A DNA stretch of 64,000 bases. It comes from Bacilli bacterium. GTDB lineage: Bacteria > Bacillota_I > Bacilli_A > RF39 > UBA660. The notes below the pieces were generated by a model. That model worked only from the letters and a program-made list of their open reading frames with translations. It was not told the DNA's origin and searched no databases. Location of the stretch: assembly GCA_017511805.1 (NCBI GenBank), contig JAFWJA010000015.1:573098-637097 (forward strand), given 5' to 3'. Positions 7,903 through 14,879 of this stretch are shown in pieces. The position numbers and the translations under genes are program-made. How positions within the stretch are numbered: position 1 is the first letter of the stretch; each line of letters opens with the position of its first letter.

Positions 7903-8532
7903 TTAATCTTTATAAGCCTCTAATCTGTTAATCTTGATACCTTTTTCTGTAAATTTCTTTTCATACTCAGTCATAATATTTCCTTCAAAATTACTATTAA
8001 CTAGGTCTAAACTTATATTTTTTAATTTATATCCATAACAAGATAATGACTCTATTGAAAACTCGAATAAGTTTACATTATCTGTCTTCATAAATATCTT
8101 TTTATCCTTCTTAAAAACCTTATCATAAACAGTTAAAAATCTTTCATGAGTAAGTCTTCTTTTAGCATTTCTTGTTTTTGGCCAAGGATCAGAAAAATTA
8201 AGATAAATAAGATCTATTTCTTTATCAAATACTTCATCTAATAATCTAGCATCCATTCTAATAAATCTAAGATTAGGAATATCTTTTTCTATCTTATTAA
8301 CTGCGTACATTAAAACAGTATCATACATTTCTATACCAATAAAATTCTTATCTGGATATGTTAATGCATTTTCTATTATGAAGTTACCTTTTCCACAGCC
8401 TATTTCTATTTCAATAGGATTTTTATTACCAAAATTCTTAGACCATTTTCCTTTATTAGATTCAGGATTCTTAACCACATATTTAGATTCTTCTAATATA
8501 CTTTTAGCATTCTTATTATTTCTAAGTCTCAT
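7903..8532 (-). CDS. trmB: tRNA (guanine-N7)-methyltransferase
   Basis: Makes m7G46 in the tRNA variable loop using SAM. 209 aa, with the SAM-binding motif IEIGCGKGNF, an acidic NLRFIRMDA and the TrmB signature LNFSDPWPKTRNAKRRLT followed by FMKTDN. It is the last gene of an apparent operon with three transglutaminase-like paralogues, 26 bases after the last of them, and is followed by a terminator. Confidence 0.93.
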   Translation of the reverse strand: MRLRNNKNAKSILEESKYVVKNPESNKGKWSKNFGNKNPIEIEIGCGKGNFIIENALTYPDKNFIGIEMYDTVLMYAVNKIEKDIPNLRFIRMDARLLDEVFDKEIDLIYLNFSDPWPKTRNAKRRLTHERFLTVYDKVFKKDKKIFMKTDNVNLFEFSIESLSCYGYKLKNISLDLVNSNFEGNIMTEYEKKFTEKGIKINRLEAYKD

Positions 8533-8558: not shown

Positions 8559-9224
8559 TTATTTACTTAATTTAAATACTTTTTCATTCTTTTTTATATC
8601 TTTCATTATTTCATCTCTATAACATAAATAAAACTTTGAAGATAAACTATTTAATTGTTTTATGTATTCATAATCTTCTTTAAAATCTTTACCTGATACC
8701 TCATTTATAACTTTATAATCATTTATTTCTATATAGTCTTCTTTTTTCATAGCTACATTTTTTGAATAATCAAATACTATTTCCATACCTTCAATACAAC
8801 CAACAAATACTGCATGTAATATTTTATCTTTATTATTATCTATATACCCTATCATGATCTTACAATCATCTTCATAATTATATGCCATACTCATAGAAGT
8901 TTGAATACATTTTCCTTTTCTATTATCACTTCTTAGATCTTCTCTTATTTCATCATCGAAAAAAGTATCTAATAAAGCAAAATAATATTTTAATCCATTT
9001 TTACTAGCTGAAAAACCTCTTTTTTCTCTTTTAAATACATTCGCATGTTCTAATATATATTCAATATCCCTATCATCTAACTTTGTAAATTCTTCTATAG
9101 CACACATTAAGAATTCTCTATCATTTTCAGCAAATCTAGGTCCTTTATATTCGTCCATAAAAAACATTTCATATGTATTATTATTGATACCATCTTGTGT
9201 ACTACTTTGATCGTTTCTTTCCAT
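8559..9224 (-). CDS. Transglutaminase-like cysteine-fold protein, paralogue A
   Basis: About 221 aa, no signal peptide. Contains GKCIQTSMSM (Cys), IMIGYIDNNKD, KILHAVF (His) and MEIVFDYSKN (Asp), which is the Cys...GY...His...Asp layout of transglutaminase-core or arylamine acetyltransferase-type folds. A tail, YLCYRDEIMKDIKKNEKVFKL, is shared with the two upstream paralogues. The family is not one I can name, and activity and substrate are unknown. I prefer the ATG at 9224, seven bases from AAAGGTGA inside the upstream gene. The ATG at 9230 is too close. Confidence 0.75.
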   Translation of the reverse strand: MERNDQSSTQDGINNNTYEMFFMDEYKGPRFAENDREFLMCAIEEFTKLDDRDIEYILEHANVFKREKRGFSASKNGLKYYFALLDTFFDDEIREDLRSDNRKGKCIQTSMSMAYNYEDDCKIMIGYIDNNKDKILHAVFVGCIEGMEIVFDYSKNVAMKKEDYIEINDYKVINEVSGKDFKEDYEYIKQLNSLSSKFYLCYRDEIMKDIKKNEKVFKLSK

Positions 9225-9861
9225 TTTCATTCACCTTTAATACTTTATTATTCTTCTTTAAATCTTTCATTATTTCATCTCTATATAATAGATATATTTT
9301 TAATGGAATAGTTCCAATTGATTCTATATATTTAAAATCTGATTGTAATTCATTACTAGTAATAACATTTAATTCTTCAAATTCAGTTAAACTGTAATAA
9401 TCTTGTTCCATCATTACTAAATTCTTAGTAAAATCATATACTATTTCATCATCTTCATAAATAGCGTGTATTATCTTTTTTTCAGAATAATGAATATAAC
9501 CTATTCTTACATTTCCTCTTTTTCTATCTAATGCCATTTTTATAGATTCAGGACAACATAATTTATATCTCGCTTTTGTTCTTAATTTAGATGCTACTTC
9601 ATGATTAGAATATTTATCCATTCTATCAAACATATATGGTCTATATCCGACAGTATAAAAATAAGCACCATCTTTTTTTATTATTACTCTACTTGAATCT
9701 AATAAAAACTCTTGTTCTTCATCATCTAATAAAGTAAATGCTTCTATTGCTTTTAAAGCATCTTCTTGGCAGCTATCAGACTCTTCATTTATTTTATAGA
9801 CACCTTTACCTAGTAATAAATCAAATGTATTACTATTCATTCCGTTATCTTTTATAATCAT
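9202..9861 (-). CDS. Transglutaminase-like cysteine-fold protein, paralogue B
   Basis: 219 aa. Same layout as its neighbours: KLCCPESIKMAL (Cys), VRIGYIHYSEK, KIIHAIYED (His), EIVYDFTKNLVMMEQDYY (Asp), then the conserved tail IYLLYRDEIMKDLKKNNKVLKVN. It has two adjacent Cys at the predicted nucleophile position, where the others have KC. Identity to the neighbours outside these motifs is modest, so the duplication is old. Overlaps paralogue A by over 20 bases, starts 10 bases after paralogue C, with GGGGGATCAT before the ATG. Confidence 0.75.
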   Translation of the reverse strand: MIIKDNGMNSNTFDLLLGKGVYKINEESDSCQEDALKAIEAFTLLDDEEQEFLLDSSRVIIKKDGAYFYTVGYRPYMFDRMDKYSNHEVASKLRTKARYKLCCPESIKMALDRKRGNVRIGYIHYSEKKIIHAIYEDDEIVYDFTKNLVMMEQDYYSLTEFEELNVITSNELQSDFKYIESIGTIPLKIYLLYRDEIMKDLKKNNKVLKVNENGKKRSK

Positions 9862-9870
9862 ATGATCCCC

Positions 9871-10533
9871 CTATTTTAATTTTAATACTTTTTCTTTTCT
9901 TTTTAATTCATTCATTATTTCATCTCTAAAACATAGATATGCCCTAGATGATAAGTTATTAAAATATTTTTTTAATATCTTTCTATCTTTTAAAAAGTCT
10001 TTACGACTTATTTTTTGAAATATTCTAAAATTAGTTAATCCTACATAATCTTCTTCATCCATAATTAGATTCTTAGTATAATCTATTATTTTAGTTTTAC
10101 CATCTTTTTCATATTCAACAACTGAATGAAGTATATCTTCATCTTCTATAGATATATAACCTGTTAAAACATGTGCTTCTTTTAGTGAACCAAGTAATGA
10201 AATACTCATTTCATGACATTTACCATATCTTTTATGAGATTCTAATTCTTGTCTATGTTTATAACCTTTTACTTGATCAGATAACTTTTCAAATACTATA
10301 TCCATTTCCCCATTAACATAATGATATATCTTATTTTTATTTATTTTAATAGTTCTAGGTTTACATTGAGGCTTTTCTCCTCTTGATAATCTAAATAATT
10401 TTTCTGCTGTTCCTAAACTAGAAAACTCTATATCAACTAAATACCTGCCATTATGATAAGGTACTTTTCTTTTTCTTTTTGGTGCGAATACATATTTATC
10501 TGTATTATCATTTATTTCATAGTGATAAGTCAT
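9871..10533 (-). CDS. Transglutaminase-like cysteine-fold protein, paralogue C
   Basis: 220 aa and first in the operon. Motifs: RYGKCHEMSISL (Cys), HVLTGYISIED, ILHSVVEYEKDG (His), IIDYTKNLIMDEEDYVGL (Asp) and tail AYLCFRDEIMNELKRKEKVLKL. The N-terminus is more basic than in A and B (APKRKRKVPYHNGRY). Start chosen at 10533, after CAAGGAGATATTAAT. The extension to 10587 would overlap the promoter boxes at 10559-10587. Cytoplasmic by sequence. Function unknown. Confidence 0.77.
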   Translation of the reverse strand: MTYHYEINDNTDKYVFAPKRKRKVPYHNGRYLVDIEFSSLGTAEKLFRLSRGEKPQCKPRTIKINKNKIYHYVNGEMDIVFEKLSDQVKGYKHRQELESHKRYGKCHEMSISLLGSLKEAHVLTGYISIEDEDILHSVVEYEKDGKTKIIDYTKNLIMDEEDYVGLTNFRIFQKISRKDFLKDRKILKKYFNNLSSRAYLCFRDEIMNELKRKEKVLKLK

Positions 10534-10558
10534 ATTAATATCTCCTTGATAAGCGTTT

Positions 10559-10587
10559 ATTATATAGTATTTACTATATAAAGTCAA
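10559..10587 (-). promoter_or_regulatory. Sigma-A promoter for the transglutaminase-like/trmB operon
   Basis: TTGACT (10582-10587), 17-base spacer, TATAAT (10559-10564) on the minus strand, about 20 bases before the Shine-Dalgarno. The -35 box begins right after the terminator T-run of the ABC exporter gene. Confidence 0.8.
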
Positions 10588-10612
10588 AGAAAAAAGAGAT
10601 TACTCTCTTTTT
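10588..10612 (-). terminator. Rho-independent terminator of the ABC exporter gene
   Basis: AAAAGAGAGTAATCTCTTTT plus T-run. The stop codon TAA of the exporter gene is the hairpin loop. Confidence 0.78.
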
Positions 10613-12279
10613 CTTGTAAGTTCTTCAAAGTATTCATTATTTCTTTTTAAATCATCATATTTACCTGAATCAATTACTTTTCCATTTAATACTACAAATA
10701 TTTCATCAGCATTTTCAATAGTGTTTAATCTGTGTGCAATTACTATTAAAGTTTTGTTTTCTAGATAATTGTTTATATTCTTCATTACTACTTTTTCAGT
10801 TATGTTGTCCACCTGAGAAGTAGCTTCATCTAATATAACAACATTTGCTTTATCAAAGAATAATCTAGCAAGACCTATTCTTTGTCTTTCACCACCTGAA
10901 ACAAGTATTCCCTTTTCACCTAAGTTAGTGTCTAAACCATCTGGTAATTTTTTATAAAATTCCTCTAAACAAACTAGTCCTAAAACCTTTTCTATTTCTT
11001 CATCTGATACCTTTTTATCAAACACTATATTTTCTTTTAGAGTTCCATCAAAAATAACTGAATCTTGTGATAAATAAGAAACATGATCATAATAAGAATT
11101 TAGATCTATTTCATTTAAGTTTGTACCATCTACTAATACTTCTCCCTTTTTAGTCTTTATTAAACCAGATATTAGTTTTATTAATGTAGATTTACCTGAT
11201 CCTGTTGTTCCAACAAAAGCTACATAAGAACCAGATTTTATTTTTAGAGAAACATTATTAAGAACTTTCTTATTTTCATATGAATAGTCTATGTTCTTTA
11301 ACTCTATGTTTCCATCTAGTTTTTTTAATTTTAAACCAGAATCAATGTTTGAAACATCTTTTAAATCTAATAGTTTTATAAATTTATCAACAGCTTGTTT
11401 GTTTAATTTGTAATCTATGTATTCAACATTAAATATAGCAATTGGTTCATAAGCCTTTCCTAGTAATGTTATTATGGCTACTATTTCACCTATAGTTAAA
11501 CTCTTACTATAAAATGCATATAAAAGCATTATTACTTTTAATATTCCTACTAATATGCCAAATGCTGTAAAAAATATTTCATGAATCATTTTTATTCTAG
11601 TTTTACCATCAACTATGTTTTTAATACCTTTTTCAGTTATTTTTATTTCACTATCATACTTCTTATTAGTTCTAAATATAACTAACTCCATAAAACCACG
11701 TAATAAGTGTTTATTTAACATTTCTTGATTAGTTAATACTTTTTCTTTAACAGAATATAATTTCTTTAAAAGTATCTTTGTCACTATCATAACAAGTACA
11801 TAACCTAATGCTACAAATAATAATAGTTTTAAATCTATTATAGCAATGTATAATAAACTGAATAATGCTGTTGGTAATAAATATCTAACTAGTTTAAAAT
11901 GAAAGTTAATTAGATTATTAGAGGCTGCTTCTGAACCTTCATTTACTCTTTCAGTAATAAGACCTGTTCCTAGTTTTTGGTATTCTAAATAATCAATTGT
12001 TTTCATTTTCTTTAATGCTTGTAGTTTAAATGATAATGGTAATCCTTTTTGTAATTGTTGTTCTGGATAGTTTTCAATGTATCCCACTACTAAATTAACA
12101 AGCATTACTATTCCAAATATTATTATTAAAGTTATACTTAAATCACCATCAAATGAATCGATTATTCTTTGAAATAAATCTACTTCAAATACATTTAAAA
12201 AGTTAGCAATGATACCTATTAATACATAAAATATTATGAATTTCTTGTATTTTTTTAATACTTCTTTGTACAATTTCAT
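10600..12279 (-). CDS. ABC exporter, fused permease and ATPase
   Basis: 559-aa half-transporter that should work as a dimer. Six transmembrane helices fill residues 1-300. The ATPase follows with Walker A GTTGSGKST (about 356), Q-loop SYLSQDSVIFDGT, signature VSGGERQRIGLARL, Walker B VVILDEATS and H-loop IVIAHRL, all intact. The family includes drug, peptide and lipid exporters, and substrate cannot be told. It is a single gene (no partner half-transporter adjacent) with a 190-base structured leader and its own promoter. Confidence 0.88.
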   Translation of the reverse strand: MKLYKEVLKKYKKFIIFYVLIGIIANFLNVFEVDLFQRIIDSFDGDLSITLIIIFGIVMLVNLVVGYIENYPEQQLQKGLPLSFKLQALKKMKTIDYLEYQKLGTGLITERVNEGSEAASNNLINFHFKLVRYLLPTALFSLLYIAIIDLKLLLFVALGYVLVMIVTKILLKKLYSVKEKVLTNQEMLNKHLLRGFMELVIFRTNKKYDSEIKITEKGIKNIVDGKTRIKMIHEIFFTAFGILVGILKVIMLLYAFYSKSLTIGEIVAIITLLGKAYEPIAIFNVEYIDYKLNKQAVDKFIKLLDLKDVSNIDSGLKLKKLDGNIELKNIDYSYENKKVLNNVSLKIKSGSYVAFVGTTGSGKSTLIKLISGLIKTKKGEVLVDGTNLNEIDLNSYYDHVSYLSQDSVIFDGTLKENIVFDKKVSDEEIEKVLGLVCLEEFYKKLPDGLDTNLGEKGILVSGGERQRIGLARLFFDKANVVILDEATSQVDNITEKVVMKNINNYLENKTLIVIAHRLNTIENADEIFVVLNGKVIDSGKYDDLKRNNEYFEELTRKRE

Positions 12280-12308
12280 ATACTTCTCTCCTTTTATTAT
12301 TCTTTAAC

Positions 12309-12472
12309 GTGGTATATAAAAAGAACCTCCTTTCATAAACAGCAAAAACTACCACAAATTTTACTGTGATATATTTTGCCATTCATGAGGAGATTCTAAG
12401 GTTCTCATCATTACTAACCTAAGCAAATGCTTTTATGGCAATTTAACGCGAATGGACGAATTACTAAATTGC
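12309..12472 (-). promoter_or_regulatory. Structured leader of the ABC exporter, candidate attenuator
   Basis: About 190 transcribed bases precede the exporter ATG. GCAATTTA and TAAATTGC can close a first stem (12465-12472 with 12438-12445), and GCCAT with ATGGC closes a second multi-branched element (to 12378). AACCT (near 12400) can pair either with AGGTT upstream (12416-12420) or with AGGTTC downstream (12323-12327), which is followed by a T-run. GTGGTA and TACCAC (12350-12355 and 12309-12314) form a further stem. It contains AAAGGAGG (12326-12333) with no start codon at normal distance. I cannot match it to a known riboswitch class. Confidence 0.5.
12361..12411 (-). CDS. Possible 16-residue leader peptide
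   Basis: ATGATG opens a 16-codon frame (MMRTLESPHEWQNISQ) ending in TAA, entirely inside the exporter leader and overlapping the strands that switch partners. The upstream region has only a weak AGG. Small leader ORFs commonly control drug-exporter genes by ribosome stalling, so it is listed, but it may be chance. Confidence 0.25.
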   Translation of the reverse strand: MMRTLESPHEWQNISQ

Positions 12473-12507
12473 AATTTAATATTACCATTTTTTATTATTT
12501 TTGTCAA
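12465..12507 (-). promoter_or_regulatory. Promoter with palindromic start-site element for the ABC exporter
   Basis: TTGACA (12502-12507), 17-base spacer, TAATAT (12479-12484). Directly downstream is a perfect 14-base palindrome TAAATTGCAATTTA (12465-12478) covering the predicted transcription start, well placed for a repressor operator. The -35 box overlaps the T-run of the preceding terminator. Confidence 0.75.
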
Positions 12508-12533
12508 AAAAAGACAAATTATTATTTGTCTTT
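12506..12533 (-). terminator. Rho-independent terminator of the sugar transferase gene
   Basis: AAGACAAATAATAATTTGTCTT followed by TTTTT. The TAA stop lies in the hairpin and the T-run merges with the next promoter's TTGACA. Confidence 0.8.
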
Positions 12534-13094
12534 TGATTGCCTTATTACTTCAATTGGTGTTTTTAGTAATATTTTTAAATCTTGCATAAATCCAAAATTA
12601 TCATAATAAATAGTGTCATATTTTAATTTATTTTTATGTGCCATATATTTACCACCTTTAACATATGCAAGTCCAGTAATACCTGGTCTTACTAAATATC
12701 TTTTATTATTTATTTTAACATTAGGTAATGTCTCACCTGGTATAAAAGGTCTTGGTCCAATAAAACTCATATCACCTTTTAAAATATTAAATAATTGTGG
12801 TAGTTCATTTAAATGACTTTTATCTATAATATAAGAAAATCTAGTATATCTTTCTTTTCTAGGCAAATCATCAGAATCTAATTTCTTAGTTCTAAATTTA
12901 TACATTAAGAATTTTTTCTTATTTAAACCTTCTCTATATCTTCTTTGATTCCATAGTGGTCTACCTAAATTAATAAATAAACATAAAGAAACAATAATCA
13001 TAATAGGAAAAGTTATTATAATTAATATCAAAGAAAAAAATATATCAAAAAATCTTTTAATATACCAATAAATACCTTTAACATGTTTTTTCAT
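12522..13094 (-). CDS. PglC-type polyprenyl-phosphate sugar-1-phosphate transferase
   Basis: Small monotopic phosphoglycosyl transferase (190 aa): one N-terminal hydrophobic reentrant helix (residues about 15-38), then FLMYKFRTK, SHLNELPQLFNILKGDMSF, IGPRPFIPGE and RPGITGLAYVKGG. It transfers a sugar phosphate from a nucleotide sugar to undecaprenyl phosphate, starting a surface glycan. The expected GLxRRxSLDELPQ-type stretch is divergent, but the core is intact. No glycan cluster is next to it; the flippase at 15.6 kb and the glycosyltransferase at 43 kb could be partners. Confidence 0.88.
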   Translation of the reverse strand: MKKHVKGIYWYIKRFFDIFFSLILIIITFPIMIIVSLCLFINLGRPLWNQRRYREGLNKKKFLMYKFRTKKLDSDDLPRKERYTRFSYIIDKSHLNELPQLFNILKGDMSFIGPRPFIPGETLPNVKINNKRYLVRPGITGLAYVKGGKYMAHKNKLKYDTIYYDNFGFMQDLKILLKTPIEVIRQSKDK

Positions 13095-13232: not shown

Positions 13233-13466
13233 ATGAATAATATGTATGGAATGCCTGGTTTTGAGAGTTATAATATGATGAATTTCCCTTATCCAAATAT
13301 GGGATATTCTCCTATGAATACACCTTGTCAAAATAATATGGATAATAAAATAAAGCAATTAGAAAAACAAATAGATAATTTACAAAATAGAGTTTCTAGA
13401 TTAGAAGAAAATATGTATCCAAAAGCAATAGATTACTCTAATACAACTTATCAAAGTATGATGTAA
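13233..13466 (+). CDS. Small Met/Asn/Pro/Tyr-rich coiled-coil protein
   Basis: 77 aa, not recognised. Residues 1-37 are rich in Met, Asn, Pro, Tyr and Gly, with repeats of the type YPNMGY. Residues 38-62 form a heptad coiled coil (IKQLEKQIDNLQNRVSRLEENM). The composition resembles small spore-coat or inclusion proteins, and a sigma-K-like promoter lies upstream, but both are suggestive only. Strong AAAGGAGG before the ATG. It stands alone on the plus strand and converges with the 462-aa repeat protein at a shared terminator. Confidence 0.72.
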   Translation: MNNMYGMPGFESYNMMNFPYPNMGYSPMNTPCQNNMDNKIKQLEKQIDNLQNRVSRLEENMYPKAIDYSNTTYQSMM

Positions 13467-13492
13467 AAAAACAATTCTTTCGAATTGTTTTT
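13465..13492. terminator. Bidirectional terminator
   Basis: AAAAACAATTCTTTCGAATTGTTTTT works on both strands, between the 77-aa gene and the repeat-protein gene. The stop codon of the latter lies at its edge. Confidence 0.85.
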
Positions 13493-14879
13493 ACATTGTT
13501 CTAGCACTCTTTGAATAGCTAGCTTCTTCAGCCATAGCTTCTGCTTTTTTCTTTACTTTTTGTACTATTTGTAATAATGATTCTTTAAATTGTAAATCAG
13601 AACTACTTATTCTCTTTTCATATTCATCTAATATATCAAAAATATTTTTATAATCTATTCCTTGGAATTCAGTAGATACATTTATATCTTTATTAAATAG
13701 ATTTCTATCAGATAACATAGTATTAATAAAATCTAAATCTTGAGCAATTCTTAAATCTGTTTTTTTATCACTTGATGCATTTTCAATATTTTGTGTTGAT
13801 TTAATATATCTTCCTCTAATAATAGATTTAATTGATTTATCTGGGAAAGAATATAATTGTTCATACATTTCATTAGTTATTTCTTCAGCAGAAATTACTA
13901 ATTGACAATAATCTACTAATTTTTGTTCATATTCCATTTCTTTATCTAAAGCCGCTCTTCTAGAGCCATCATCAACACCTGTCATACCATGTTGATCTAC
14001 ATCTTTATATGCTGAATCAAAGTCTGGATCTATACTTAATCCTCCGCCTATTTGCGTATTAGGTAATCCATGTTGATCTATATCTTTATATGCTGAGTCA
14101 AAATCTGGGTCTATACTTACTCCTCCACCTAACTCTGTATTAGGTAATCCATGTTGATCTAATGCTCTATACACAGCATCAAAATCAGAATCCATGCTTA
14201 CTCCTCCACCTATTTGCGTATTAGGTAATCCATGTTGATCTAATGCTTTATATGCAGAATCAAAATTTGGATCTATACTTACTCCTCCACCTATTTGTTC
14301 TCTAGGAACATCTCTTTGAAGATAACTACTACCACCATAATTATTCGTAGGAGTTGGAATACTAACTGGTGAAGATATAGGATTATATGTTCTTGAATAT
14401 GTTTCTGAAGCACGTGTATTAGCTCTTTCAATTGGAGTCATAGTTCTTCTTGTTTCATCTTTTTTAGGTTCTTTAGATTTTCTTTCCTCAGCATCCCTTA
14501 TTAGAATATCATCACTATTATATTCATGTAAATAATTTGTTAAATCATCTAAAGGATTATCTATTCTAGAAGCTAATCTTCTTTTATCTTCTGACTCTAA
14601 AGTTGAATAAGAATCAAATAAGTTTCTAACTGTAGTTGAATCAACAATAAAATTTGATTTCATTTTTACTTTAGAAATTAATTTAGTAATCTTGGACATA
14701 ATTGCGGGTCTCTTCTTAGTTGGACTACTAATATATTTAGAAATTAGTTTTCCTAATTTAGCTCCTAATTTTGGATCTTTTTGACTTATTAACCTTTTAC
14801 AAGCATCAATTGATATTCTTGTTTTTTCTCTTGATTTTCTATATCTTTCTATTTCTCTATCATAATCCATATAATCCAC
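13491..14879 (-). CDS. Repeat protein of unknown function with four 27-aa repeats
   Basis: 462 aa, no signal or membrane segment. Residues 1-100 are basic and helical. Residues about 190-300 hold four 27-aa repeats of the type GGGVSIDPDFDSAYKALDQH with HGLPNTQ as the end of the unit. The rest is an acidic-basic mixed helical domain (about 330-455). The N-terminal basic domain (SKYISSPTKKRPAIMSKIT) could bind nucleic acid or membrane. No family recognised. Stop codon lies at the shared terminator. The upstream neighbour is a membrane-anchored protein. Confidence 0.7.
   Translation of the reverse strand: MDYMDYDREIERYRKSREKTRISIDACKRLISQKDPKLGAKLGKLISKYISSPTKKRPAIMSKITKLISKVKMKSNFIVDSTTVRNLFDSYSTLESEDKRRLASRIDNPLDDLTNYLHEYNSDDILIRDAEERKSKEPKKDETRRTMTPIERANTRASETYSRTYNPISSPVSIPTPTNNYGGSSYLQRDVPREQIGGGVSIDPNFDSAYKALDQHGLPNTQIGGGVSMDSDFDAVYRALDQHGLPNTELGGGVSIDPDFDSAYKDIDQHGLPNTQIGGGLSIDPDFDSAYKDVDQHGMTGVDDGSRRAALDKEMEYEQKLVDYCQLVISAEEITNEMYEQLYSFPDKSIKSIIRGRYIKSTQNIENASSDKKTDLRIAQDLDFINTMLSDRNLFNKDINVSTEFQGIDYKNIFDILDEYEKRISSSDLQFKESLLQIVQKVKKKAEAMAEEASYSKSARTM
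13978..14302 (-). repeat. Four tandem 81-bp coding repeats
   Basis: The element CCATGTTGATCT recurs at 13987, 14068, 14149 and 14230, exactly 81 bases apart, so the repeat is in frame and 27 codons long. Units differ at several third positions and a few residues. Confidence 0.9.

Follow-up and report, generated by a model that had tools for sequence, protein, structure and literature searches.

The window, a stretch of 64,000 nucleotides, carries three neighbouring genes on the minus strand that encode transglutaminase-like paralogues of about 220 residues each: P3 (9871-10533, 220 aa), P2 (9202-9861, 219 aa) and P1 (8559-9230, 223 aa). An earlier note on this DNA had proposed such a trio, and open reading frames, mutual E-values and motif alignment all confirm it. 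The three proteins are 30-36% identical to each other with E-values down to 1e-33, and a search of the genome with P1 retrieves P2 at E 1e-32 and P3 at E 1e-23 as the only other family copies. At the level of sequence, their paralogy is thus far above chance. The reading frames of P2 and P1 share 29 bp if P1 starts at ATG 9230, the start that yields 223 residues. The ribosome-binding site touches this first ATG and ATG 9224 is therefore a possible alternative start. The motifs picked out in the note (GKC/CC, GYI, LHA/LHS, DYTKN/DFTKN and the RDEIM tail) were all found in register, the variants in the three paralogues being RKGKC, RYKLCC and RYGKCH, followed by the common GYI, by LHA, IHA and LHS and by DYSKN, DFTKN and DYTKN. 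The putative triad consists of C106 (codon 10216-10218), H136 and D151 in P3, with spacings of 30 residues from Cys to His and 15 from His to Asp, and of C108, H139 and D154 in P1, while in P2 it is contained in RYKLCCPES, IHAIY and YDFTKN. A further N-terminal motif common to P1-P3, G[IM]NxNT[FY]xLLF, was missed by the earlier reading; it also occurs in many single-domain members of the family and is recognisable where the second domain of the fusion proteins described below begins.

A sigma-70-like promoter, TTGACT-17-TATAAT, lies ahead of P3 on the minus strand (10559-10587). It matches the consensus in 11 of 12 positions and is the best promoter match of the region. In the goat-ileum relative L062, both hexamers, the AAGGAG ribosome-binding site and ATG 10533 are kept and the spacer differs, which speaks for a genuine promoter and for ATG 10533 as the start of P3. 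The strong promoter suggested previously is thus supported, and position 10587, the outer end quoted for the trio, is where its -35 hexamer begins and not a gene start. The stretch from P3 to trmB showed no terminator-like site, in line with the run into trmB noted before, and P1-P3 are probably transcribed from their own promoter on into this gene.

The gene trmB for tRNA guanine-N7 methyltransferase (7903-8532, minus strand) is the downstream neighbour of P1, and read-through from P1 into it is probable. A general linkage with trmB, to which the earlier note gave too much weight, did not hold up: the arrangement is seen only in the window genome and two close relatives. The site next to trmB holds three copies in the window and in L062, a single copy in L063 and none in G038, G214 and G251, in which the flanks are largely conserved. 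As genomes of the same genus carry zero, one or three copies at this site, co-function with trmB as a general trait was rejected. Members at other loci adjoin unrelated genes and are also inserted between nusG and rplK and between trmD and rplS, as single genes set in the operons in the form nusG-X-rplK and trmD-X-Y-rplS. The proximity of trmB is incidental; it is a neighbour and not a conserved partner. The conserved translation operons interrupted in this way are found at L012 1300-1989, L067 709-2148 and L068 1288-2719. In individual cases, other members adjoin genes for RNA modification or translation, such as a pseudouridine synthase (L009) and a YlbM-like HIGH nucleotidyltransferase (L058). 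The window genome contains two TrmB genes (window 7903-8532 and G000:C6:276580-277086); each of the five genomes examined within the genus has two, and three genomes of the family from other genera have one.

Upstream of P3 resides a gene for an ABC transporter (10600-12279, minus strand), which is missing at the equivalent place in L062 and is for this reason not considered part of the system. Its match to the PADLOC model mad3 probably reflects a generic ATPase. Together with a sugar transferase it fills the region 10600-13094 between P3 and a small plus-strand gene (13233-13466). This block is missing from G251 and other genomes of the same genus, and L062 has the sugar transferase and lacks the transporter. 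Further upstream, a minus-strand gene (13491-14879) encodes a protein of 462 residues, for which no clear Pfam family was found and in which a unit of about 28 residues (GGGVSIDPDFDSAYKALDQHGLPNTQI-like) recurs several times almost unchanged. An adjoining ABC transporter could point at RiPP leader peptidases resembling the lasso-peptide B2 protein (Transglut_core3, PF13471), which have the same Cys...G...H[SA]W order, and one family member weakly matches Transglut_core3 at E 0.2. An hhalign comparison with Transglut_core3 members returned a Prob of only 1.4%, on the basis of just two template sequences, neither a precursor nor a cyclase gene was seen near P1-P3, and the 12 bp between the P3 promoter and the ABC gene offer no room for a precursor. 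With the transporter absent from the L062 locus as well, a role as lasso or RiPP peptidase finds support neither in this two-template comparison nor in the gene context seen; we set it aside as highly improbable.

Searches of P1-P3 against Pfam, NCBIfam and PHROG gave no significant match, and none of the window proteins reached the curated Pfam cut-off for Transglut_core (PF01841), for which the best weak match of a single member was E 0.07. Matches to NCBIfam TenpIN and LiaK and scattered PHROG matches were discarded as not significant and inconsistent in family. In the PDB, the three-sequence profile weakly matched Fic proteins (E 0.006), a match that was gone with 12 sequences and is taken as chance. 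Alignment by hhalign of a 31-sequence profile with Transglut_core domains from the same class yielded a score of 36.5 (P 4e-5, Prob 69%) and superimposes C106, H136 and D151 on the Cys, His and Asp of the transglutaminases. For comparison, 300 column shuffles scored 9.9 on average and 17.1 at most, and the reversed profile scored 17.2. A profile search for remote homology, as recommended in the note, therefore came out in its favour, and points at homology to Transglut_core with the presumed catalytic residues in register.

Structure prediction, the second check it had named, agrees as to the fold. From input alignments of only eight sequences, AlphaFold produced a confident core for P3 (residues 60-218, pLDDT about 87, blocks mostly above 80) and a better model for P1 (mean pLDDT 82.8, pTM 0.80). 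The order of elements is common to both models, and in both the Cys starts a helix, the His sits on the second following strand and the Asp ends the next strand. VIA comparisons with the P1 model gave SseI (Z 7.1, 3.3 A, 97 residues), LapG (Z 6.3, 4.7 A, 100 residues), a papain-like CDI toxin (Z 5.6, 3.0 A, 82 residues), TglA (Z 5.4, 3.4 A, 85 residues), protein-glutaminase (Z 5.2, 3.5 A, 95 residues) and NAT (Z 5.0, 3.5 A, 84 residues). The matches of the P3 model are similar. Nearly all of the best matches are papain- or transglutaminase-like cysteine enzymes, among them also PeiP, PeiW, staphopains, NTAQ1 and CPR-C4, and a viral structure library returned similarly weak papain-fold matches. 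Foldseek found nothing in the PDB at E below 0.05 and no structural match attained Z 8; since the top Z of 7.1 lies within the range of a mere common arrangement, no single solved family is claimed. The P1 and P3 models nevertheless fit the fold of papain-/transglutaminase-like cysteine enzymes with an ordered Cys-His-Asp.

Across 31 family members, which apart from the 84% identical L062 orthologue of P3 share only 21-33% identity with it, the sole invariant residues are R102, C106, G125, H136, D151, N155 and E205 (P3 numbering). The proposed Cys-His-Asp core is thus made up of exactly those residues that are invariant family-wide, and profile alignment and the structural neighbours of the AlphaFold models agree with it. 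A broader set of 61 domain rows shows the Cys retained in 48 of 56 and the His in 48 of 53, with Asp and Asn155 each present in 56 of 58. Loss of Cys or His in homologues, regarded by the earlier note as telling against the core, does occur in the first domains of fusions and in a few degenerate single proteins. Such losses in several domains might indicate binding proteins that retain nothing but the fold. Outside the first halves of fusions, nearly every domain retains Cys, His and Asp despite divergence elsewhere to 21-33% identity, which makes a purely non-catalytic family very improbable.

Eight of the aligned domains lack the Cys. One belongs to L013, and the other seven form the first domain in a two-domain fusion (L008, L009, L010, L011, L014, L043 and L054). 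All seven first domains have lost both Cys and His, yet they retain most other conserved positions. The second domains carry the full triad, except in L054, where a stop downstream of the Cys interrupts the second half. Judged from the sequences, the combination of an inactivated first half with an intact second half is a recurrent architecture. In the tree, however, the six intact fusions cluster on a single branch, and they may go back to a single event. Separate genes in tandem recur as well, in the window, L062, L019 and L067/L068.

With the three-sequence profile, 19 of the 145 genomes from the family gave a match, and with the 12-sequence profile 81 of the 288 from the order did; every one of the matched genomes falls in the GTDB family of the window itself. 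Samples of the class and phylum contained no convincing member outside this family, and beyond it the 31-sequence profile recovered only two fragments with E about 1e-3, one of them full of stops. The named relatives are metagenome assemblies, i.e., Bacilli bacterium RGIG2368 from goat ileum, uncultured Erysipelotrichaceae RUG13038 and Bacillales UBA5578. The lineage probably corresponds to RF39-type gut Bacilli, the small genomes of which have been described (PMC7301438). A literature search on the protein family itself returned nothing relevant. Apparently, we are dealing with an undescribed, lineage-restricted family inside a well-known superfamily. P1 and P2 are sisters in the tree (support 100/98), and P3 joins the lone copy of L063 at moderate support (90/84). 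The duplications behind P1-P3 predate the split of the window species from L062. Pairwise Nei-Gojobori dN/dS between the window and L062 amounts to 0.20 for P3, the most conserved copy, 0.40 for P2 and 0.53 for P1, the fastest evolving one, as compared to 0.13 for trmB. All values are below 1 and therefore consistent with purifying selection, which is weakest on P1.

The patchy presence in the order, the varying copy number at one site within a genus, the fast divergence of P1, the single-gene insertions into conserved operons, the fusions with an inactivated first domain and the papain-like CDI toxins among the structural matches would all suit a function in conflict or defence. In such a unit, either an intragenomic toxin/immunity or an anti-phage one, the triad enzyme would cleave or deamidate a host or phage protein and be restrained by sister copies or pseudo-domains. 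We consider this rather unlikely, as P1-P3 have no match among PADLOC models of known anti-phage systems, no defence neighbours were seen, the triad is kept in all three window copies and P3 is conserved to roughly the same degree as its neighbours. Nor did phages, plasmids or viral contigs yield any relatives, in a search sensitive to close sequence relatives only, and an origin from a mobile element was rejected on this basis. A related and bolder proposal, to which we likewise assign a small chance, sees a rapidly diversifying, lineage-specific family of cytoplasmic transglutaminase-like enzymes that would work as active/inactive partner pairs, either encoded in tandem or fused behind a pseudoenzyme half, and would have spread as single-gene inserts in chromosomes of one gut bacterial family, with a role in intracellular conflict or regulation.

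Instead, P1-P3 are very likely small cytoplasmic cysteine enzymes of the transglutaminase-like branch of papain-like proteins that would use Cys, His and Asp for catalysis on an intracellular substrate. Their presumed cytoplasmic location follows from the lack of an evident secretion signal. The computed support covers the fold class, the invariance of Cys, His and Asp together with R102, N155 and E205, as well as the purifying selection acting on each of the genes. In the proposed mechanism, Cys106 at the helix start would be the nucleophile, His136 would serve as its base and Asp151 would orient His136. Cys106 would attack an amide, be it that of a peptide or isopeptide bond or that in the side chain of a glutamine, and the resulting thioester acyl-enzyme would be resolved by water or an amine. 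The substrate is probably an intracellular protein or peptide, hydrolysis would be favoured over cross-linking, and P1-P3 may have separate targets or, the other option raised in the earlier note, may form a hetero-complex. About a quarter of the sampled genomes in this order of uncultured bacteria with small genomes hold a member of a family that is unnamed in the family libraries searched. The strict triad amid strong divergence and the repeated fusions with a pseudoenzyme make up a clear, testable set of enzymes, and the substrate, once found, would inform on little-known bacteria.

Among known systems, LapG and other BTLCP proteins (Peptidase_C93) belong to the same fold class with structural Z of 4.9-6.3. 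LapG is periplasmic and calcium-dependent, whereas P1-P3 are without an evident signal peptide and no lapD-like neighbour was seen. The best structural match is SseI, with Z 6.3-7.1 over 93-97 residues of a papain-like core, although Tox-PLDMTX gave no Pfam sequence match for P1-P3. The catalytic domain of SseI (Tox-PLDMTX) is a probable glutamine deamidase (PMC10318531). Identity to it is only 15-19%, and SseI is a secreted effector domain, in contrast to the family described here with neither secretion signal nor effector context. Transglut_core proteins share the Cys at the helix start, the His, as part of an H[AS]W-like motif, on the strand that follows and the Asp on the next strand. The present family scores below the Pfam cut-off and is set apart from them by its small stand-alone proteins, an invariant Arg four residues before the Cys, a DxxxN motif at the Asp and a C-terminal helix with an invariant Glu.
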